A stretch of 64,000 nucleotides of DNA, taken from positions 248,001-312,000 of the forward strand of contig NZ_CAIT01000010.1 in NCBI RefSeq assembly GCF_000296815.2, written 5' to 3'. The number at the start of each line of letters is the position of its first letter. The first letter of the stretch is position 1. Positions 37,669 through 47,996 of this stretch are shown here, one piece after another. Source of the stretch: Fibrisoma limi BUZ 3 (GTDB lineage: Bacteria > Bacteroidota > Bacteroidia > Cytophagales > Spirosomataceae). The position numbers and the translations under genes were made by a program. Below the pieces are notes generated by a model, which searched no databases, had not been told where the DNA came from, and worked only from the letters and a program-made list of their open reading frames with translations.

Positions 37669-40080
37669 GTGATAGCAAACGAACAACTCCGCTCGACTGA
37701 TATTCTCTCCCGCGAAAAAATCCTTTCCGACTATCGTGTAGCCTGCGAAAGTCGACAGGCCAGTTTGCTGGGTCGGAGGGACGTAATGGGCGGGCGTGCC
37801 AAGTTTGGTATCTTCGGCGATGGTAAAGAACTGGCGCAGATTGCTGCCGCCAGCGCTTTCCGACGAGGGGACTTCCGCTCCGGCTATTATCGTGATCAGA
37901 CCTTCGTGGCTGCGCTGGGTGAACTACGCTGGACCGAATTCTTCGCGCAACTGTATGCCGATACCGACGTCACGCGTGAACCTAATACGGCGGGCCGATC
38001 TATGAATGGCCACTTTGCCACCCGTTGGCTCGACGAAAACGGGTTGTGGCGAAATCAGACCGAATTCTTCAATTCCGTCTGCGATATTGCTCCCACGGCC
38101 GGGCAGCTTCCGCGTTCGCTTGGGCTGGCTTATGCGTCGCGGCTGTTCCGGCAGAACCCCGAACTGAGTGAACTGACCAACTTTTCCCGGCATGGTAATG
38201 AAGTTGTATTCGGTACGATCGGCGATGCCTCCACGTCGCAGGGAATGTTTTGGGAAACCATGAATGCGGCCGGGGTACTGCAAGTGCCACTATTGATGTC
38301 TGTCTGGGACGATGGGTATGGTATCTCTGTGCCGGTTGAGTATCAGACAACAAAAGGTAGCATCTCTAAAGCTATGGCTGGTTTTCAGCGGGATGCTATT
38401 GATGACAAAGGCTTCGAACTGTTTACGGTAAAAGGCTGGGACTATGTGGCCCTCATCGAAACGTATCAGCATGCCGCCCGCATCTGCCGCGAACAGCATG
38501 TTCCCGTACTTGTTCACGTACAGGAACTGACTCAGCCACAGGGACATTCGACCTCCGGTTCGCACGAACGCTACAAGTCGACTGAGCGGTTAGCCTGGGA
38601 GGTTGAGCACGACTGCAACCGGATGTTCCGGCTGTGGATTCTGGAGAATGGCTATGCCAGCAGCGATGAGCTGGATGCTATCGAAGCCGAGGCAAAACAG
38701 GTTGCCCGTGAGGCTCGTGTCGATGCCTGGAACGCGTTTCAGGCGTCTCTACAGGGCGATCACAACGAAGTTGTTGATCTATTGCAGCAGACCGCCCGGA
38801 ACCATCCAAAATCGGCCGAACTGATGGCGATTCGTGAGGAACTTCGCCGGATTGTCAATCCTCTGCGCCGTGACGATGTGGCGGCTGTTCGTAAAGCCCT
38901 CCGGTTAGTGCGGAACGATACAGGCAACGCTAAAGAAAATCTCCGAAATTGGCTCATCCGCACAAGGTCAGAAAACGACGATCGGTTTAGCTCACACTTA
39001 TACAGCCAATCGCCCGAGTCGCCGATGCTGGTGAAGGAGATACCGGCGCATTATCCGGAAGATGGCCCGGTGGTTGATGGCTACATACTCATGCAGCGTT
39101 ACTTTGATAGCCTCTTTGCCCGTGACCCGCGTGTGGTAGCGCTGGGTGAAGACGTAGGCCGGATTGGTGACGTAAACCAGGGGTTTGCCGGTTTGCAGGA
39201 GAAATACGGGGAAGAACGTATTACGGACACCGGCATTCGCGAAACAACCATCATTGGGCAAGGTATTGGACTGGCTATGCGGGGGCTGCGCCCAATTGTG
39301 GAGATTCAATACTTCGACTACATATTTTACGCGCTGGCAACCCTGACCGACGATCTGGCCACGCTGCTGTACCGAACCAAGGGTGGACAGAAAGCTCCGC
39401 TTATTGTTCGAACGCGCGGCCACCGGCTGGAAGGTATCTGGCATTCCGGGTCGCCAATGGGGGCTATGCTCAGCAGCCTGCGGGGTATGCACGTTCTGGT
39501 GCCCCGAAACATGACCCAGGCGGCCGGATTTTACAACACACTAATTAAAAGCGACGATCCGGCGCTGCTGATCGAGTGTCTCAACGGCTACCGGCTCAAA
39601 GAGCGACTTCCTGATAATTTAGACGAATTCTGCCTGCCGCTCGGCGTTCCCGAGGTGCTTCGTGAAGGCGCAGATGTAACCGTGGTTACCTACGGATCGA
39701 TGTGCCGAATCGTGATGGAAGCAGCCAGTCATTTGGCGGACATGGGCATCAGTGTGGAGGTAATCGACGTACAGACATTGCTACCTTTCGATGTGCATCA
39801 TTCAATTGTCGAGTCGATCAGAAAAACCAACCGGGTGGTGTTTGCCGACGAAGACGTACCGGGTGGGGCATCGGCCTACATGATGCAGCAGGTAGTAGAG
39901 GAACAGAAAGCGTATCAATACCTTGATTCGGTTCCGCGTACGCTGACCGCAAAAGCACACCGACCGCCCTATGGTTCGGATGGGGATTATTTCTCAAAGC
40001 CGAATGTAGATGACGTGATCGAAACCGTGTATGCGCTGATGAGCGAAGCCGAACCATCGCGCTTTCCGGAATTGTATTGA
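37669..40080 (+). CDS. 2-oxoacid dehydrogenase E1, fused alpha and beta subunits
   Basis: An 803-residue thiamine-diphosphate enzyme decarboxylating a 2-oxo acid, with E1-alpha (about 20-410) and E1-beta (about 450-800) in one chain. The alpha half carries the TPP/Mg region GDASTSQGMFWETMN (Gly-Asp with Asn 13 residues on). The beta half shows ALGEDVGRIGDVNQGF, TDTGIRETTIIGQGIGLA and the transketolase C-terminal ADEDVPGGASAYM. The fusion type is common in Bacteroidetes and probably serves branched-chain or pyruvate oxidation. The start is GTG; no upstream in-frame ATG exists before a stop. E2 and E3 genes are not in the window. Confidence 0.86.
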   Translation: MIANEQLRSTDILSREKILSDYRVACESRQASLLGRRDVMGGRAKFGIFGDGKELAQIAAASAFRRGDFRSGYYRDQTFVAALGELRWTEFFAQLYADTDVTREPNTAGRSMNGHFATRWLDENGLWRNQTEFFNSVCDIAPTAGQLPRSLGLAYASRLFRQNPELSELTNFSRHGNEVVFGTIGDASTSQGMFWETMNAAGVLQVPLLMSVWDDGYGISVPVEYQTTKGSISKAMAGFQRDAIDDKGFELFTVKGWDYVALIETYQHAARICREQHVPVLVHVQELTQPQGHSTSGSHERYKSTERLAWEVEHDCNRMFRLWILENGYASSDELDAIEAEAKQVAREARVDAWNAFQASLQGDHNEVVDLLQQTARNHPKSAELMAIREELRRIVNPLRRDDVAAVRKALRLVRNDTGNAKENLRNWLIRTRSENDDRFSSHLYSQSPESPMLVKEIPAHYPEDGPVVDGYILMQRYFDSLFARDPRVVALGEDVGRIGDVNQGFAGLQEKYGEERITDTGIRETTIIGQGIGLAMRGLRPIVEIQYFDYIFYALATLTDDLATLLYRTKGGQKAPLIVRTRGHRLEGIWHSGSPMGAMLSSLRGMHVLVPRNMTQAAGFYNTLIKSDDPALLIECLNGYRLKERLPDNLDEFCLPLGVPEVLREGADVTVVTYGSMCRIVMEAASHLADMGISVEVIDVQTLLPFDVHHSIVESIRKTNRVVFADEDVPGGASAYMMQQVVEEQKAYQYLDSVPRTLTAKAHRPPYGSDGDYFSKPNVDDVIETVYALMSEAEPSRFPELY

Positions 40081-40093
40081 TCGTAATTCAGTT

Positions 40094-40176
40094 TAAACGC
40101 AAAGGGCGCAAAGGAAACGCTGGGATCGCAAATTATCTTTGCGGTCTTTGCGAGAGCTTAGCGCCCTTTGCGTTTA
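40094..40176. repeat. Inverted CGCAAAG-type repeat upstream of nuoI
   Basis: TAAACGCAAAGGGCGC (40094-40109) and its exact complement (40161-40176) flank a stretch that also contains TTTGCGGTCTTTGCGAGAGC. This kind of CGCAAAG-rich block occurs dispersed between genes in Cytophagales genomes. Here it lies in the leader of nuoI and could fold as a long hairpin. Confidence 0.65.
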
Positions 40177-40189
40177 TTACCTTTGTGAC

Positions 40190-41719
40190 ATGTCCTATTT
40201 TCAAGACATACAGGATGGCATCCGGACAACGCTGAAGGGCCTCAGTCTGACACTGCAGCATTTGCGTCACGCTACGCAGCGTCGGACACCAGTCGGTGTT
40301 GCCAGCGAAAACTACTTCGAGCAACAGAACGGCCTCGTTACGTTGCAGTACCCGCATGAGCAATTGCCCATCCCAGACAATGGGCGATACCGGCTCTACA
40401 ACGAGATCGACGATTGTATTGTCTGTGATAAATGCGCCAAAGTATGCCCCGTCGACTGCATCACGATCGATGCCGTCAAAGCTACGGAGGAAGTAGGCCG
40501 GGCGTCCGACGGCTCCCCCATTCGTCTGTATGCGGCCAAGTTTGACATCGACATGGCCAAATGCTGTTATTGCGGGCTTTGTACGGTCGTGTGCCCTACC
40601 GAGTGCCTGACGATGGAGAAAACCTTCGATTATAGTGAGTTTGAACTCGGAAAGCTTACGTATCATTTTGCGAATCTGACGCCCGAACAGGCCGATGAAA
40701 AGCGGGCTCTCTACGAGCAGTTCGTTCGGGAGAAGGAAGAACTTAAAGCGCAGAAAGCCCCCGCTCCCCAGTCGACCGAAGCAGCGCCAGCGGCCAAACG
40801 GCCCGTTTTCCGGCCTACCGCCAAACCTGCGGCTACGCCACCTGCCGAAACGACCGTCCCGGCCGAACCGGAGCAAGTTGCATCGGCCGAGTCCGCAGCG
40901 ACTCCACCAGCTCCTAAACGGCCGGTGTTCAAACCGACGCTGAAGCCAACAGCAAAAACAGAGACATCTGACGAGCAGAAACCCGCCGAGCCAGCTCCAG
41001 CAGTTCAGTCGGAGGTAAAGGCTGAAGAAGCAGCGCAAAAAACAGCCGCTCCCAAACCGGCCTTCCGACCGACCATGAAGCCACCGGCGGCTAAATCAGT
41101 GGAGCCGGGTAATTCGGAAGACAAGGAACTAAAGAAACCGATCGACAAACGTAACTCAGTAGGGTCAGCGTTGGAGCACCCGGTTACTGACGCTACCCCC
41201 GACGAAGCGGGCCAGATTGCGTTGGAGGCTCGTCAGGATGCGGCCGATCGGGGGGAGGTACAACAGACGGCTCCGGATGCGCCAGCGCCGGACGCACCAA
41301 AACCGCGCCCGGCGTTTCGACCCACAATGAAACCGGCTGCACCAAAGCCCGACAGTACGTCGACGGAACTAGCAAAAGCCAATGAGGAAGCGGCTGCTCC
41401 TGAACCGCCCAAACCGAAGCCAGCGTTTCGTCCTACGATGAAGCCTACTCAAGCGGCTAAGCCAGCCGAAGCGGCTTCGGACAAGTCGGCCGGTGTTCCT
41501 GAACAGCCGACACCCGAACCAGCTAAGGCGAAACCGGTTTTCCGGCCTACGATGAAGCCAACAATCCCAAAGCCGGAAGAGAGTTCTAGTGATTCCGCAA
41601 AGCCTGATGGAGAAGCGGTTGTTCCGGAACTGCCCAAACCGAAGCCAGCTTTCCGGCCAACCATGAAGCCCAAACCGAAACCGGACGAGACGGCTGACAA
41701 CTCGGGTGAAACAACGTAA
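40190..41719 (+). CDS. nuoI: NADH-quinone oxidoreductase subunit I with a long repetitive C-terminal tail
   Basis: Carries electrons within complex I through two [4Fe-4S] clusters: C76-C79-C82-C86 and C125-C128-C131-C135. The core ends at about residue 185. Beyond it lies a tail of more than 300 residues rich in Pro, Lys, Ala and Glu with seven repeats built on P-A/V-F-R/K-P-T-x-K-P, separated by acidic linkers. Normal NuoI is 160-230 residues. The start at 40190 is preferred because the frame upstream lies within the inverted repeat block. nuoJ starts 27 bp downstream. The tail could dock to other subunits or the membrane, but this is speculative. Confidence 0.88.
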   Translation: MSYFQDIQDGIRTTLKGLSLTLQHLRHATQRRTPVGVASENYFEQQNGLVTLQYPHEQLPIPDNGRYRLYNEIDDCIVCDKCAKVCPVDCITIDAVKATEEVGRASDGSPIRLYAAKFDIDMAKCCYCGLCTVVCPTECLTMEKTFDYSEFELGKLTYHFANLTPEQADEKRALYEQFVREKEELKAQKAPAPQSTEAAPAAKRPVFRPTAKPAATPPAETTVPAEPEQVASAESAATPPAPKRPVFKPTLKPTAKTETSDEQKPAEPAPAVQSEVKAEEAAQKTAAPKPAFRPTMKPPAAKSVEPGNSEDKELKKPIDKRNSVGSALEHPVTDATPDEAGQIALEARQDAADRGEVQQTAPDAPAPDAPKPRPAFRPTMKPAAPKPDSTSTELAKANEEAAAPEPPKPKPAFRPTMKPTQAAKPAEAASDKSAGVPEQPTPEPAKAKPVFRPTMKPTIPKPEESSSDSAKPDGEAVVPELPKPKPAFRPTMKPKPKPDETADNSGETT

Positions 41720-41746
41720 GACAAATCTGTGTAATCTGCGAAACTT

Positions 41747-42298
41747 GTGGCTCAACTTGCATTCTACGGCTTTGCAGCCCTGACTATCGGCGGTGCGTTA
41801 GCCGTGTTATTAACGCGAAACGTACTGTATGCCGCTTTTTTTCTGTTACTGACCCTGTTGGGGGTAGCCGCTCTCTTTGTGCTGGCCGGTGCCGATTTCC
41901 TGGCCATTGCGCAGATCATGATCTACGTGGGTGGGGTGCTGGTGCTGGTCATCTTTGGTGTTATGCTTACGCACAAACGTGACCCACAAGCCAGTACGGA
42001 CAGCCAGCAGCCAAACCGCATTCTTACGTTGAACCGAAATTGGGTAGGGGTCCTTCTGGTGGCAGTGCCCTTGTTTCTGGGCTTGTACACCCTACTGGCG
42101 CGGACCAACTTTACGATTCTTAATCAGCCAAGCCCAAATTGGCAGACAACAATCGATACGATCGGTAAGCAGCTCATGACCGAGTACGTTGTGCCGTTCG
42201 AGATTGTTGGCATATTGTTGCTGGCGGCTCTGGTGGGTGCTACGTACCTGGCTTCGCCCCGTTCTAACCCGCTTACCAAACATGGAAACCGTACCTAG
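41747..42298 (+). CDS. nuoJ: NADH-quinone oxidoreductase subunit J
   Basis: A 183-residue complex I membrane subunit with five hydrophobic helices and the NuoJ signatures NVLYAAFFLLLTLLGVAALFVLAGADFLAIAQIMIYVGGVLVLVIFGVML in TM1-3. Start is GTG. It overlaps nuoK by 17 bp, an arrangement expected for translational coupling of these small subunits. Confidence 0.92.
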   Translation: MAQLAFYGFAALTIGGALAVLLTRNVLYAAFFLLLTLLGVAALFVLAGADFLAIAQIMIYVGGVLVLVIFGVMLTHKRDPQASTDSQQPNRILTLNRNWVGVLLVAVPLFLGLYTLLARTNFTILNQPSPNWQTTIDTIGKQLMTEYVVPFEIVGILLLAALVGATYLASPRSNPLTKHGNRT

Positions 42299-42593
42299 TC
42301 AGTTATATCTTATTGTCGGCGCTGCGCTCTTCAGCATAGGATTAGCCGTTGTGTTGCTTAAGCGCCACGTTATCATGGTGCTGATGGGCATTGAATTAAT
42401 GCTCAACGCCGTTAATCTGAACCTGGTTGCCTTCAGTCGGCATGATCCCGACCGCCTGCAGGGCCAGATGCTGGCGTTGTTTGTGATGGTGGTAGCCGCT
42501 GCCGAATCGGCGGTGGCGCTGGCAATCGTGCTGCAAGTGTACCGACATTTCCGCACGGCCCAGTTGGATGAGTTGAATGAATTGAAACAGTGA
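42282..42593 (+). CDS. nuoK: NADH-quinone oxidoreductase subunit K
   Basis: A 103-residue, three-helix complex I subunit. Conserved Glu residues sit in helix 2 (MGIELMLNAVNLNLVAFSR) and helix 3 (VAAAESAVALAIVLQVYR), both known to be needed for proton translocation. The ATG at 42282 lies inside the end of nuoJ. It is followed after 4 bp by an oxygenase gene rather than nuoL. Confidence 0.93.
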   Translation: METVPSQLYLIVGAALFSIGLAVVLLKRHVIMVLMGIELMLNAVNLNLVAFSRHDPDRLQGQMLALFVMVVAAAESAVALAIVLQVYRHFRTAQLDELNELKQ

Positions 42594-42597
42594 TGGT

Positions 42598-43218
42598 ATG
42601 GACGAGCGTTTTGAACCCATCATAGAGGGTATTCTGGCCGATGGATACGGTGTACTTGATAATTTTCTGACTGCCGACGAAGTGGTAGCGCTGACAGCCC
42701 GGCTTCACGAACGCCGGGCACAAGGTCAGTTCCGGCCGGCCGGAATCGGGAATCAGCAGGTTGCAGTTGAAAAGCAGATCCGGGGTGATGAAATCCTGTG
42801 GCTTGAAAAAGACACCGCTGTTGCAGAAGAAGCAGCATTTCTGGCAAGGATAGAGCAGTTCATGGACTATGTGAACCAGACCTGTTACCTGGGACTACGT
42901 GATTTCGAGTTTCATTATGCGGTGTATCCGCCCGGTACGTTCTACAAACGCCACCTCGATCAGTTTCGCAGCGATTCCCGCCGAAAACTGTCGGTGATCT
43001 GCTACCTGAACGATAACTGGCAGGAAAGTGACGGCGGTCAGTTGACCTTGTTTCTACCGGGCACCCAACCCGGCCAGGCCGAACAGAACATCACGATCCA
43101 GCCGATTGGGGGGCGCCTGGTGTGTTTTGAAAGTGGACGGCTGGAACATGAAGTCCGACCGGCCGCTCGCCAGCGATTGAGCGTAACGGGATGGCTGAAG
43201 ACGCAGGGTGTCTTCTGA
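42598..43218 (+). CDS. 2OG-Fe(II) oxygenase (prolyl hydroxylase-like)
   Basis: A 206-residue double-stranded beta-helix dioxygenase. Iron ligands are H119-x-D121 (YKRHLDQF) and H184 (RLEHEV), with R193 (RQRLSVTGW) as 2-oxoglutarate binder. The sequence resembles SM-20/EGL-9-like P4H proteins that hydroxylate prolines in elongation factors or unknown proteins. It starts 4 bp after nuoK and ends in a 128-bp overlap with a convergent gene. Its insertion in the complex I cluster may be chance; an attractive but untested link is with the proline-rich NuoI tail. Confidence 0.87.
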   Translation: MDERFEPIIEGILADGYGVLDNFLTADEVVALTARLHERRAQGQFRPAGIGNQQVAVEKQIRGDEILWLEKDTAVAEEAAFLARIEQFMDYVNQTCYLGLRDFEFHYAVYPPGTFYKRHLDQFRSDSRRKLSVICYLNDNWQESDGGQLTLFLPGTQPGQAEQNITIQPIGGRLVCFESGRLEHEVRPAARQRLSVTGWLKTQGVF

Positions 43219-44131
43219 GCAGCTGGTGCAGAACCGAGCGACACCAGTTGCGCGCCAACTGCGGCAATGACTGACGGCATACCGCCCCCCAATACGCCAC
43301 CTGCATCCCCGCTTTGGGAAACGTCGACAGCAGCGGCATCAGCGTTTTGGCGTTGCCCTGGCAATGCAGCGACCGCAGCCGAATGAGCCGACCTTCATAC
43401 GTAGCAAATGGCACGCCCTGCTGCCAGATGATCCGTTTGCCCAGCCCATGGCCCGCCAGAAACCCGCTGGCATCGTTGACGTTGTCGTCATGAACGGCCG
43501 TGTCGGTCTCACGCCGTTTCAACAAACTAACCGTTCGCTCGGCATACTGCCGCTGATACAGCTCCAGCAGGGTCATGTCCGATACGCCCACAAAGCTGGC
43601 ATGGCTCCCCTCCAGGTACTCAAAGTACAGCTCTTCCAGGAGCCGCAACCGGCTTGTGTCCAGGTAGTGCTGCTCGATGAACCCACACCAGTGCTGAAGC
43701 GCAGCCTGGCTGCCTACGTACAGCACATGAGGAATCCAGTGTACGAAACCTAGGGTGTCGGCATTGGCTGGGTAGTCATCCTCGGTATCCAGCCGGTCAA
43801 AGAGCAACACGTCCGAATCGAGATGGATGCAGTTGGCCAGTTGCTGGTCCTGCATGAACTCGAGCAGCACAAACCAGCGCTGCAAACAGAAGAGTTCGTA
43901 GGTGTAGGGTCGGTCGGACAAGTGCTTGTAGAGGTACATGAACCGCTCGGCCTTGGCCCAGTAGTGTAGAATCGGGAAGTGGAAAATGCCCTGGGTGGCC
44001 AAGTGGCGGTTGGTGTCATCGCCCAGAAGACAGATGCTGGCCTGCGGGTTGGTGTAGCGGGCCTGTCGCAGGCAGTAGGCTAGGTAGTAAGGATTGCCCC
44101 GGTGAACGATGATGATGGTCGCTGGTGCCAT
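43091..44131 (-). CDS. Glycosyltransferase-like protein (DxD type), convergent overlap
   Basis: A 346-residue protein with a nucleotide-sugar transferase layout: N-terminal beta-strand ATIIIVHRGNPYYLAY, then CIHLDSDVLLFDRL near residue 100-114, whose D105-x-D107 fits the metal-binding DxD motif. The acceptor side carries WIPHVLY and FATYEGRLIRLRSLHCQG. I recognise no narrow family. The last 43 codons lie antisense inside the oxygenase gene, so the normal domain probably ends near residue 300 and the extension may be poorly conserved. Confidence 0.65.
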   Translation of the reverse strand: MAPATIIIVHRGNPYYLAYCLRQARYTNPQASICLLGDDTNRHLATQGIFHFPILHYWAKAERFMYLYKHLSDRPYTYELFCLQRWFVLLEFMQDQQLANCIHLDSDVLLFDRLDTEDDYPANADTLGFVHWIPHVLYVGSQAALQHWCGFIEQHYLDTSRLRLLEELYFEYLEGSHASFVGVSDMTLLELYQRQYAERTVSLLKRRETDTAVHDDNVNDASGFLAGHGLGKRIIWQQGVPFATYEGRLIRLRSLHCQGNAKTLMPLLSTFPKAGMQVAYWGAVCRQSLPQLARNWCRSVLHQLLRRHPASSAIPLRSIAGERPVGLHVPAVHFQNTPGAPQSAGS

Positions 44132-44347
44132 AGCGTCTGATCTATGATTTTGTAATTCGATTGAGCTGAATTGTTTACATCGAGGTGTTTTTCTTAATAA
44201 GAGCAGCGATCAAAAGGTAAGTGGGCAACTGATGCTATTGGCCGGAGCGCCAACTAAACATGTAATACGGACTGACAACCGGCCAAAATACGAGTTTGGT
44301 TAAAGACAGCAGATTCGGGATATTTGCGGCCAAATTCATTGCTGCGA

Positions 44348-46261
44348 ATGCCCGACGACGTACCACCCATTTTACCTTTGCTGACGGCTGCGATTCTGCT
44401 CACGCCCTTTGCTGGATTCCTGGTGCTACTGAGGGCCGGGCATCGCTCGGCTGGTCGCATCGCCGTATTATTGACGGGCCTGGGCTTAGTCGCTTCCGTC
44501 GTATTGGCAATGAGTATGCCAGTGCAATCTATTGCCTTGCGAATCAATTGGGTAGCCCTGCAGCACATCACTTTCGACGTAGGGTTCCGGCTCGATACAT
44601 TGACCGCCCTCATGCTGATGCTTGTACACGGCGTAGCCTTGCTGGTACAACTATATTCGATTTCCTACCTGCACGACGAGCCGCGATTGCCGCGCTATTT
44701 TTCGTACCTGCAATTGTTCGTCGGGGCCATGCTGGGCATTGTGCTGGCTGGTGATCTAATTATCATGTACGCGTTCTGGGAGCTGGTAGGGCTCGCGTCA
44801 TACCTGCTCATCGGCTTTTATACGGAGCGGCCATCGGCGGTGCGGGCGGCTAAAAAGGCATTTCTGATGAACCGGATCGGCGACGTTGGCTTTCTGATCG
44901 GTATCTTCCTGACGTATTTCTACACGAATGCTACGGAATTGCCTACCGAGGGGGCTTCGGCCTTGCCTACGGTCGTTGGCTTGTGTCTGTTCATGGGCTG
45001 CGTGGGTAAGTCGGCGCAGTTTCCGCTGCTGACCTGGCTCCCGGATGCGATGGAAGGCCCCACGCCCGTTTCGGCGTTGCTCCACGCAGCTACGATGGTG
45101 GCCGCCGGTATCTTCCTGCTGCTACGGATCTATCCGATCTTATCGCCTGATGCGTTGAGCATTATTGCACTCGTGGGTACCATTACGGCCATGTGGGGTG
45201 GATACTCCGCCGTTTTTCAGCATGACATCAAGAAAGTGCTGGCTTTCTCAACCGTTTCGCAACTGGGATTGATGGTGGCCGGGGTAGGGACGGGTAATCC
45301 GACGGGCGCTCTGTTTCACCTGCTGACCCACGCATTTTTCAAAGCAGGGTTGTTTTTGAGTGCGGGCGCTGTCATTCACGGTGTAGAAACGCAGGATATG
45401 CGGCACATGGGTGGTCTGCGAAAAACACTGCCTGGTACGTTCGTGGCCTATACGGTTTGTGCCGCAGCGTTGGCTGGTTTACCACTCTTGTCCGGTTTTT
45501 TATCCAAGGAAGTGATTTTAGCCGGTGCCTTTCAGTGGGCAGACGTACAGGATAATGGACTGGCCTATGCCATACCCGCGTTGTTACTGCTATCATCTGG
45601 CCTGACGGCGCTGTACATGGTTCGGCAGTGGCAGATGGTTTTCTTCGGCCCGTACCGAAACCACGCATTGCCGCTTCAGCAGGTCCACGAACCCGATGCC
45701 CTGATGCGCATACCTGTTGGATTGCTGGCCTTATTATCCATTGGCTTCTGGTTCTCGCTCAATCCATTTCACGCGCAGGATAGCTGGTTTTTCGATGTGT
45801 TTGCCCCAGCAACCGAAACGGCCGAAGTAAGCTGGCTGGCACCCGTTTCCATTGCTCTGGTAGCGTTGGGGGGATACGTTGGTTTCCTCCTGCGTAACCA
45901 CGATAATAATGCTGGAGCCATGACCCGCAGCTACGTCCGGCTGTCGGTCGAGTACGGATTTCTGGATGCCATTTATCAATTCATCATTATTAAGCCAATT
46001 CGTCAACTGGCTACGCTGTTGTACCGGACCGACCAACGCGTGGTGGATGGCGCTGTTAACGGACTCGGAGTTGGTTCGGTCGTAACGGCGCACCTGACCA
46101 ACCTGCTGGATCGGTGGGGCGTCGACGGTGTCGTTAATGGTGCAGCCTGGGTGGCCGGGCGCTTGGGTCGGCTGGCGCGTTCGGTGCAGAACGGCCGCGT
46201 ACAATCGTACATTACAGCGGCCGTAGTGGGGCTACTACTAATGTTGTGGTGGCTCCTGTAA
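44348..46261 (+). CDS. nuoL: NADH-quinone oxidoreductase subunit L
   Basis: A large proton-pumping complex I subunit (637 residues) with the proton_antipo_M core and C-terminal amphipathic helix. Landmarks include FDVGFRLDTLTALMLMLVHGVALLVQLYS, YAFWELVGLASYLLIGF (conserved Glu), AQFPLLTWLPDAMEGPTPVSALLHAATMVAAG and HAFFKAGLFLSAGAVIH (Lys in TM8). The ATG at 44348 is taken; the frame is open from a TTG at 44324. It follows a divergent region after the opposing glycosyltransferase gene, so it is separated from nuoK by about 1.75 kb. Confidence 0.92.
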   Translation: MPDDVPPILPLLTAAILLTPFAGFLVLLRAGHRSAGRIAVLLTGLGLVASVVLAMSMPVQSIALRINWVALQHITFDVGFRLDTLTALMLMLVHGVALLVQLYSISYLHDEPRLPRYFSYLQLFVGAMLGIVLAGDLIIMYAFWELVGLASYLLIGFYTERPSAVRAAKKAFLMNRIGDVGFLIGIFLTYFYTNATELPTEGASALPTVVGLCLFMGCVGKSAQFPLLTWLPDAMEGPTPVSALLHAATMVAAGIFLLLRIYPILSPDALSIIALVGTITAMWGGYSAVFQHDIKKVLAFSTVSQLGLMVAGVGTGNPTGALFHLLTHAFFKAGLFLSAGAVIHGVETQDMRHMGGLRKTLPGTFVAYTVCAAALAGLPLLSGFLSKEVILAGAFQWADVQDNGLAYAIPALLLLSSGLTALYMVRQWQMVFFGPYRNHALPLQQVHEPDALMRIPVGLLALLSIGFWFSLNPFHAQDSWFFDVFAPATETAEVSWLAPVSIALVALGGYVGFLLRNHDNNAGAMTRSYVRLSVEYGFLDAIYQFIIIKPIRQLATLLYRTDQRVVDGAVNGLGVGSVVTAHLTNLLDRWGVDGVVNGAAWVAGRLGRLARSVQNGRVQSYITAAVVGLLLMLWWLL

Positions 46262-46316
46262 AGCGGGCATACGTCCGCTTCGTGCATTAATTGTGGGTTT
46301 ATACCCGCTTATATCT

Positions 46317-47996
46317 ATGGTGTTAACATTACTTATTTTCATACCCATCGCCGGATCGTTACTGGTCGCTCTGTTACCCGACCAGCGGGCTGCACTGTTC
46401 AAATGGATAGCCCTGGGTGTGGCTATTCTTGAACTGGTACTGAGCGGCCTGGCTTATATTAGCTTCAATACAAAGCAAGTGGGGTACCAACTCCTCGAAC
46501 AGGCTGACTGGATAACCGTTCCGCTGGGTAATCTCGGGATTGCCTCGATTGATTACGTCGTTGGGGTGGATGGCATCAGCCTGCCGCTGGTGGTACTATC
46601 GGCAGTTGTCCTGCTGGCGGGCGTTATTTCGTCGTGGACCATCGATCATCGACAGAAGGCCTACTTCGCCTTGTATCTGCTCCTGACAGGTACGGTTATG
46701 GGGTGCTTCGTAGCGCTGGATTTCTTTCTATTCTTCCTGTTTTTTGAGTTCATGCTCCTCCCAATGTACTTTCTCATCGGGCTTTGGGGCGGTCCCCGGC
46801 GTGAATATGCGTCCATAAAGTTCTTCCTGTATACATTGCTGGGATCGCTGCTGATTCTGCTGGTCATGATTGGCTTGTATCTGTCGGTGATCGATCCGAT
46901 CAGCACGGCCGTAGCAGTTGGTTTCATCAGTGACCCGTCGGAGGCAACGGCCGACGTAGTACGGCTTATTCAGAATCAACTCCGCTACTACCAACTGAAT
47001 CCGGCTATGGTCGTGCATACATTCGACATACGGTACCTGGCCGACGGAGGTAACTACCTGCCCAATGCTTTCCTGAGCCTGACCGGCGAACCGATTGTAC
47101 TGGGGCTGCCGGCCCGATTGCTGGCTTTCTGGGCGGTGTTCATTGGCTTTGCCATCAAACTGCCGATCGTTCCGTTGCATACATGGTTGCCCGACGCCCA
47201 CGTTGAAGCGCCAACTCCCGTATCGGTCGTTCTGGCGGGCGTATTGCTCAAAATTGGTGGCTATGGATTCCTGCGTATTGCCTGGGGGCTATTCCCCGAT
47301 GGAGGTGCTGAGTTTGCCCGGACATTGGCTGGCCTGGGTACGTTGTCGATTGTGTACGGTGGCCTGAATGCATTGGCGCAGTACGACGTCAAGAAAATGA
47401 TTGCTTATTCGTCGGTGTCACACATGGGCTTCGTACTGCTGGGTGTAGCTTCCTTAACGGCCGAAGGGATCAACGGCGCTATCTATCAGATGGTGAGCCA
47501 CGGCGTTCTGTCGGCTATGCTGTTTCTGATCGCGGGGGTGGTGTATGACCGGACCCACGACCGACGTATCGACTCATACCGGGGATTAATGCAGCCCATG
47601 CCCCAATACGCTACGTTGACGGCCGTTGCGTTTTTTGGATCACTGGGCCTACCGGGTTTTTCAGGTTTTGTTGGTGAGTTGTTCACGCTGATGGGCAGTT
47701 TCCAGTCGCTTTGGTTGCCGGGCTGGTACACGGCGGTTTCGACGCTGGGTATAGTGCTGGCAGCCGCCTATTTTCTCTGGACGCTGCAGCGGATGTTTTT
47801 CGGGCCATTCTGGTCGCGGCACGAAACAAGTACCCAGAATGGCGTTTCCGTATTAACCGACCTGACCGCCCGCGAAAAACTCTTACTCATTCCGCTGGGT
47901 ATTCTGGCGCTGGTCCTTGGTCTTTTCCCTAATCTGATCTTCAACCTGACAAGCACTACGGTGGCGCAGTGGCTGGAGAAGTTCATGGTGCAGTAA
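46317..47996 (+). CDS. nuoM: NADH-quinone oxidoreductase subunit M
   Basis: A 559-residue antiporter-like subunit of complex I: FFEFMLLPMYFLIGLWGGPRREYASIKFFLYTLLGS, KLPIVPLHTWLPDAHVEAPTPVSVVLAGVLLKIGGYGFLRI and SSVSHMGFVLLG are all standard. Start ATG 46317 is 55 bp after nuoL. nuoN, usually next, is absent; instead the convergent gldG gene begins its 3' end 71 bp later. Confidence 0.92.
   Translation: MVLTLLIFIPIAGSLLVALLPDQRAALFKWIALGVAILELVLSGLAYISFNTKQVGYQLLEQADWITVPLGNLGIASIDYVVGVDGISLPLVVLSAVVLLAGVISSWTIDHRQKAYFALYLLLTGTVMGCFVALDFFLFFLFFEFMLLPMYFLIGLWGGPRREYASIKFFLYTLLGSLLILLVMIGLYLSVIDPISTAVAVGFISDPSEATADVVRLIQNQLRYYQLNPAMVVHTFDIRYLADGGNYLPNAFLSLTGEPIVLGLPARLLAFWAVFIGFAIKLPIVPLHTWLPDAHVEAPTPVSVVLAGVLLKIGGYGFLRIAWGLFPDGGAEFARTLAGLGTLSIVYGGLNALAQYDVKKMIAYSSVSHMGFVLLGVASLTAEGINGAIYQMVSHGVLSAMLFLIAGVVYDRTHDRRIDSYRGLMQPMPQYATLTAVAFFGSLGLPGFSGFVGELFTLMGSFQSLWLPGWYTAVSTLGIVLAAAYFLWTLQRMFFGPFWSRHETSTQNGVSVLTDLTAREKLLLIPLGILALVLGLFPNLIFNLTSTTVAQWLEKFMVQ

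Follow-up and report, generated by a model that had tools for sequence, protein, structure and literature searches.

A conserved array of basic motifs on the second NuoI of Fibrisoma limi, possibly a docking tail of an apparently headless complex I

Why should the small iron-sulfur subunit of a respiratory complex carry a tail longer than its own folded part? The question is raised by a window of 64,000 nucleotides of the Fibrisoma limi BUZ 3 genome (the whole stretch of DNA that was analysed; NZ_CAIT01000010.1, positions 248,001 to 312,000), in whose numbering coordinates are given below. On its plus strand an uninterrupted frame runs from an ATG at 40190 to a stop at 41719 and encodes 509 residues, of which residues 1-185 (40190..40744) are a NuoI-type core and residues 186-509 (40745..41716) the tail; we call this protein NuoI'. 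The preliminary description of the locus had taken 40745 for the beginning of the gene, which had to be corrected, as it is the tail that starts there. Its main observation, a NuoI core with eight cluster cysteines that continues in frame into seven repeats, was confirmed by the intact frame and by alignment. It had also suggested that NuoI of relatives be aligned and disorder be predicted, and had named a frameshift or an assembly artefact as what might separate the tail from the core. No such break was found, and the tail is present and open in 103 of 103 family relatives.

The core has two CxxCxxCxxxCP motifs (C76, C79, C82, C86 and C125, C128, C131, C135), and in the 40 proteins aligned all eight of these cysteines are kept without exception. 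These motifs and the NuoI fold place the protein in the NuoI/NdhI family, and the genomic context, with nuoJ', nuoK', nuoL' and nuoM' following nuoI', agrees with this assignment. The AlphaFold2 model of the whole protein has a mean pLDDT of 57 and a pTM of 0.38, with ten-residue means of 60-93 across the core except for one block at 44. When this model was searched with Foldseek at E 0.001, 48 of the 50 matches listed were subunit I chains of complex I or NDH, and the other two belonged to formate hydrogenlyase; the best E was 4e-8, the top fold match was a subunit of canonical complex I, and TM-scores were low because the model includes the tail. By sequence, the core matched chloroplast NdhI best in the PDB (65 bits), a chain of a complex that has no NADH head, with a small lead over an NADH-quinone oxidoreductase subunit I (8qby, 60 bits). 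The canonical NuoI of the same genome matched Thermus Nqo9 best, with 133 bits. Against TIGR01971 NuoI' scored 81.4 bits, below the cut-off of 113.05 for canonical NuoI, and the other NuoI of the genome (187 aa) scored 131.9 bits. The nuoI' core is 96% identical in the other Fibrisoma genome. A further locus, on a record titled Flavobacterium sp. SUN052 (NZ_JAPQNS010000016.1), has a nuoI' 83% identical to the window gene in a Spirosoma gene order; its Flavobacterium label is probably wrong.

The preliminary description had regarded NuoI' as the ordinary NuoI of the cell with an odd extension. This had to be abandoned, since the genome encodes a second, canonical NuoI of 187 residues and NuoI' belongs to a second nuo set, apparently without NuoF. 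The canonical genes nuoA-B-C-D-E-F-G-H-I-J form an operon on contig C5 (157-165 kb), whose nuoI encodes no tail, and the canonical nuoK-L-M-N lie on the same contig at 7-12 kb. NuoI' shares 26-33% identity, over the matched part, with the canonical NuoI of its own genome or genus. By sequence, it is a paralogue of that protein and a predicted subunit of a second complex I.

The second set is scattered. Within the window nuoI' is followed on the same strand by nuoJ' (41747..42298) and nuoK' (42282..42593), and by nuoL' (44324..46261) and nuoM' (46293..47996); nuoD' and nuoN' lie apart on another contig. Neither C5, nor the parts of C6 that were read, nor the surroundings of nuoD' and nuoN' yielded genes for A', B', C' or H', so that D' and I' to N' are the subunits found for a complex of A, B, C, D, H, I, J, K, L, M and N. 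In three loci of other Cytophagales nuoH' to nuoN' are contiguous, and in a fourth they are arranged likewise, with a gene resembling TPR histidine kinases between nuoH' and nuoI'. At least two NuoD-type matches occur in 40 of 41 family genomes, the exception being 63% complete. In eight Runella loci nuoK was not found within about 10 kb upstream or 7-10 kb downstream, and nuoI' seems to be separate there from the rest of its complex. NuoM' matches the antiporter domain in separate pieces, as though some 50 residues had been inserted, and it is 75 aa longer than the canonical NuoM. In NuoN' (L223:8319-9917, minus strand) there is an in-frame stretch, SPPALLLGEERGGSS...VGERGGERS, which resembles the translation of a dispersed repeat that has entered the gene. 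An ORF of 346 aa (43091-44131, minus strand) lies inside the nuo cluster on the opposite strand and overlaps the end of a 2OG-oxygenase ORF; it had no Pfam match.

The genome has a single PF01512 (NuoF) match, and it is located in the canonical operon. The second complex I appears, from gene content, to have no NuoF of its own and to be NuoEFG-less, or headless, and the two complexes may share one NuoEFG in this species. A survey of 291 genomes of the order, in which the NuoI' search was compared with a PF01512 search and each genome was classed by its best PF01512 match, points the same way. NuoI matches were obtained in 230 genomes, of which 46 belong to the family, 83, 51 and 48 fell into the classes below and two were left out as weak or partial; some of the genomes are incomplete, and relatedness among them makes the counts non-independent. 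A strong NuoI' match was present in 134 genomes outside the family, 51 of them with a second NuoI and 83 with NuoI' alone. Among the 51 with both, the PF01512 match was NuoF-sized in 48 and of unlisted span in one, and there was none in two. Among the 83 with NuoI' alone there was no match in 59, a shorter one in 16, one of unlisted span in four and a NuoF-sized one in four. A third class of 48 genomes, with only a weak, canonical-type NuoI match, had NuoF-sized matches in 43, short ones in two and none in three. The four short matches tested were all RnfC, and the one long match tested was NuoF. Because the genomes with NuoI' alone mostly lack NuoF, NuoI' seems to go with a complex I that has no NADH module.

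Several reports bear on the electron donor of such complexes. For the headless NUO of Bacteroides fragilis, the available portion of the source reports mutants that did not indicate any use of NADH, and describes the donor as unknown (PMC7002350); the available text on the NDH-I of Prevotella, also NuoEFG-less, likewise holds that the donor is thought not to be NADH (PMC6560451). Ferredoxin is discussed as the donor of an 11-subunit complex in the portion available of another report (PMC11238625). In a cyanobacterial headless enzyme, as far as the accessible text goes, a positive surface on NdhI and its neighbours is where ferredoxin docks, with small subunits assisting (PMC7021789). We ruled out a POR-type ferredoxin oxidoreductase as a general source of electrons: the domain PF01558 of 2-oxoacid:ferredoxin oxidoreductases is absent from this genome and from 246 of the 291 genomes of the order, being matched in 45 (44 over the cut-off). 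Outside the family it was more common in genomes with NuoI' alone (21/83) than in those with two NuoI (2/51).

The tail itself consists of 324 residues rich in proline (19.8%), alanine (18.8%) and lysine (11.4%). It contains seven copies of the motif P-[AV]-F-[RK]-P-T-[AML]-K-P, located by pattern match: PVFRPTAKP (40802..40828), PVFKPTLKP (40922..40948), PAFRPTMKP three times (41057..41083, 41309..41335 and 41420..41446), PVFRPTMKP (41534..41560) and, close to the C-terminus, PAFRPTMKP again (41645..41671), all on the plus strand. A degenerate DNA pattern for the motif, which misses the first copy (...PTAKP), had six matches in the whole 7.6-Mb genome, all within this tail, and its reversed control had none. 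No further copy of the tail was found in the genome at E 10, and no solved structure matched it by sequence at E 1. A second element, HPVTDATPDE (residues 330-339; 41177..41206, plus strand), leads into the sole helix that is predicted beyond residue 190 (residues 338-353), and is present in some form (HPLTDATPDE) in 30 of the 103 family relatives. Through the tail pLDDT is mostly below 50, and the tail is probably disordered, low model confidence being an indication and no proof. Two long open frames lie opposite the tail (40133-41038 and 41369-41755, minus strand) and are perhaps only shadows of its codon composition.

How far this tail extends among relatives was judged from 103 distinct complete NuoI' proteins of the family; NuoI' was sampled from 44 of 200 family genomes, from 80 named loci, from 39 other genomes of the order and from 20 genomes of Bacteroidota outside it, and five proteins were excluded as cut or masked. 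Family tails measure 39-595 aa (median 273) and have a median of six motif matches (range 0-17), against a mean of 0.2 in residue-shuffled tails. Only two relatives, both Runella, had no match by the exact pattern, and one of them has the variant VFVPKKP. Around the 663 F[KR]P sites of these tails the consensus is [KR]-P-[AV]-F-[RK]-P-[TS]-[MF]-K-P-K, with K or R at -3 in 88% and P at -2 in 80%, and, after the P of the site, T or S in 72%, M in 57%, K in 89% and P in 80%. These family tails contain one Cys, no Trp and five Tyr among 27,195 residues.

Elsewhere in the order the array is less regular. In 38 relatives outside the family the tails measure 8-311 aa, four of them under 20 aa, and a loose form of the motif was found in 24 of 35, in some as a single copy near the C-terminus; of the 17 among these 35 that come from NuoF-less genomes, 9 matched it. 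With tails under 20 aa in 4/38 and the loose motif in only 9/17, headless complexes as such do not, on these sequences, require the motif array. In the 20 sampled Bacteroidota outside the order, with tails of 3-275 aa, the family motif is absent. Six of them carry one to three closely spaced copies of another basic repeat, approximately KLSPMMAAKLAAKK, so that a motif array seems to have arisen on this subunit a second time, independently. The preliminary description had called the tail a lineage-specific extension: a genuine and conserved extension it is, and the narrow limit does not hold, as the tail is family-wide and often shorter in the rest of the order, and sampled Bacteroidota outside it have other tails.

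In a codon comparison of the window gene with nine relatives (pS 0.4-0.9), pN was 0.03-0.18 in the motif, 0.02-0.14 in the core and 0.14-0.49 in the linkers, the procedure aligning motif to motif and being thereby biased towards a low motif pN. The motif value was below that of the core in four of the nine comparisons and above it in five. Compared with one another, the seven window copies show differences at 80% of synonymous sites and at 10% of non-synonymous ones, and no DNA tandem array was detected in the tail by TRF. The tail is, on this codon evidence and its distribution, an old and selected feature, in which motif codons are constrained about like the core and linkers much less. A disordered context, a conserved motif and divergent linkers are the marks of a short linear motif array, and the tail has all three.

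The best explanation overall, which we put forward tentatively, is that the tail is a flexible multivalent docking array for an electron donor or its carrier on a headless complex I. NuoI' would be the exposed electron-entry subunit of a complex I without NuoEFG, and its tail a flexible string of basic motifs (KPxFRPTMKP) with slightly acidic linkers between them. Each motif would be a linear docking site for one partner surface, the repetition would raise avidity and local concentration, and the array would gather the electron donor, either a soluble carrier or a dehydrogenase, or a protein that brings the donor. That the tail docks a partner in this way is probable, because it combines predicted flexibility, conserved repeated motifs and freely diverging linkers, and tethering or binding, already put forward in the preliminary description, would be its most plausible class of function. 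As the array sits where electrons would enter when NuoEFG is missing, this partner is possibly the electron donor or its enzyme. It counts against the docking reading that a basic tail suits acidic proteins generally, or lipids, equally well.

A bolder form of the proposal, which we consider doubtful, is that the tail serves as an inbuilt antenna in place of the NADH-oxidising head and collects donor proteins, or dehydrogenase complexes as a whole, where the iron-sulfur entry site is exposed, different lineages of Bacteroidota having evolved different docking motifs. Whole dehydrogenase complexes are candidates because a fused 2-oxoacid dehydrogenase E1-type gene (37669..40080, plus strand) sits immediately upstream of nuoI' in the window, and 34 of 80 named loci are arranged likewise; these 80 are the best of 440, all counted as family although one is labelled Flavobacterium. 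If the docking reading is true, this would be an unusual core respiratory subunit with up to 17 copies of a docking motif. A peptide-sized, repeated motif on the entry subunit would be a ready-made bait for the partner of a headless complex I, and the tail thus a handle on the donor of the Bacteroidota enzyme.

The position of the last motif agrees also with a role in assembly or architecture: the C-terminal motif would fasten to some other subunit of the complex, to an assembly factor or to a different respiratory complex, and the additional copies would stabilise complexes or gather them into clusters. Of the 101 family relatives with a motif match, 94 have the start of the last one no more than 25 residues from the C-terminus, several short homologues retain the terminal copy alone and the number of motifs is freely variable. 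However, a single copy would do for such a clip and up to 17 occur; moreover, in AlphaFold2 models of two homologues, one long and one short, no motif was docked with confidence, which says little as both models were weak (pTM 0.38 and 0.26). We regard this role as rather unlikely.

Binding to membranes or polyanions seems improbable; on this view the basic motifs would anchor the arm at lipid head groups or attach without specificity to nucleic acid or acidic polymers. The motifs average a charge of +3.2 and contain aromatic and aliphatic residues besides, while the linkers have -6 per 100 aa; and the other basic motif of the six Bacteroidota outside the order may mean that charge outweighs sequence. 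Nevertheless, further positions around the 663 sites are kept too, and the motif pN is near that of the core, where non-specific electrostatics would tolerate more change.

Growth of a functionless tail by replication slippage is very improbable, and we rejected it on the codon contrast and the absence of a TRF array. The wide range of tail lengths in one family would fit such drift, as would the longest tail (L073, the same gene as L136), which to the eye seems recently duplicated; yet the window copies are saturated at synonymous sites with the motif kept, linkers diverge far more than motifs and no family relative has lost the tail.

The preliminary description had also raised the idea that the tail prolines are modified by the product of a gene close by. 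This gene (42598..43218, plus strand), which adjoins nuoK', encodes a PHD-type 2OG-Fe(II) oxygenase whose closest solved relative by sequence is 4IW3, the PPHD of Pseudomonas putida, which according to the available part of the source hydroxylates EF-Tu (PMC7864055). It is a neighbour in part of the family only: among the 66 named loci that have nuoK, and within the locus itself, a 2OG gene follows nuoK in 23 (19 by a strict rule, plus four in which it abuts the end of nuoK). The tail, 20% proline, is most improbably a substrate of this enzyme, as its median length is 279 aa in the 43 loci without the gene there and 290 aa in the 23 with it, and the solved relative acts on EF-Tu.

The docking array now favoured can be compared with several known systems. 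NuoI' has the fold family and the eight cluster cysteines in common with the NuoI of the canonical 14-subunit enzyme (Nqo9, NDUFS8), but differs from it in scoring below the TIGR01971 cut-off, and the canonical copy of this genome has no tail. Its core resembles cyanobacterial and chloroplast NDH-1 in having NdhI as its top PDB match, by a small margin. That enzyme, according to the accessible text, has no NADH module and receives ferredoxin at NdhI (PMC7021789). The NdhI chains matched, of 163-196 aa, are too short for such a tail, and ferredoxin binding to NDH-1 is aided by the separate small subunits NdhV and NdhO. The headless 11-subunit complexes of Bacteroidota, the B. fragilis NUO and the Prevotella NDH-I, likewise have a NuoI-type subunit without NuoF, and no repeat tail is mentioned for them in the available portions of the reports (PMC7002350, PMC6560451). 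The second set of Fibrisoma differs from these in that it accompanies a canonical complex I, is encoded at scattered places and has a conserved motif array on subunit I.

No repeat tail or motif array on NuoI was found in the literature searched (titles and the beginnings of abstracts), and to our knowledge no such array is present on a core subunit of complex I. The tail is a conserved variant feature on a known kind of enzyme, of which that literature yielded no earlier description. A general parallel is with arrays of linear docking motifs in disordered tails, which likewise combine a short conserved motif with divergent linkers and a variable copy number, and in which the terminal copy is usually kept, as it is in the tails of NuoI'.
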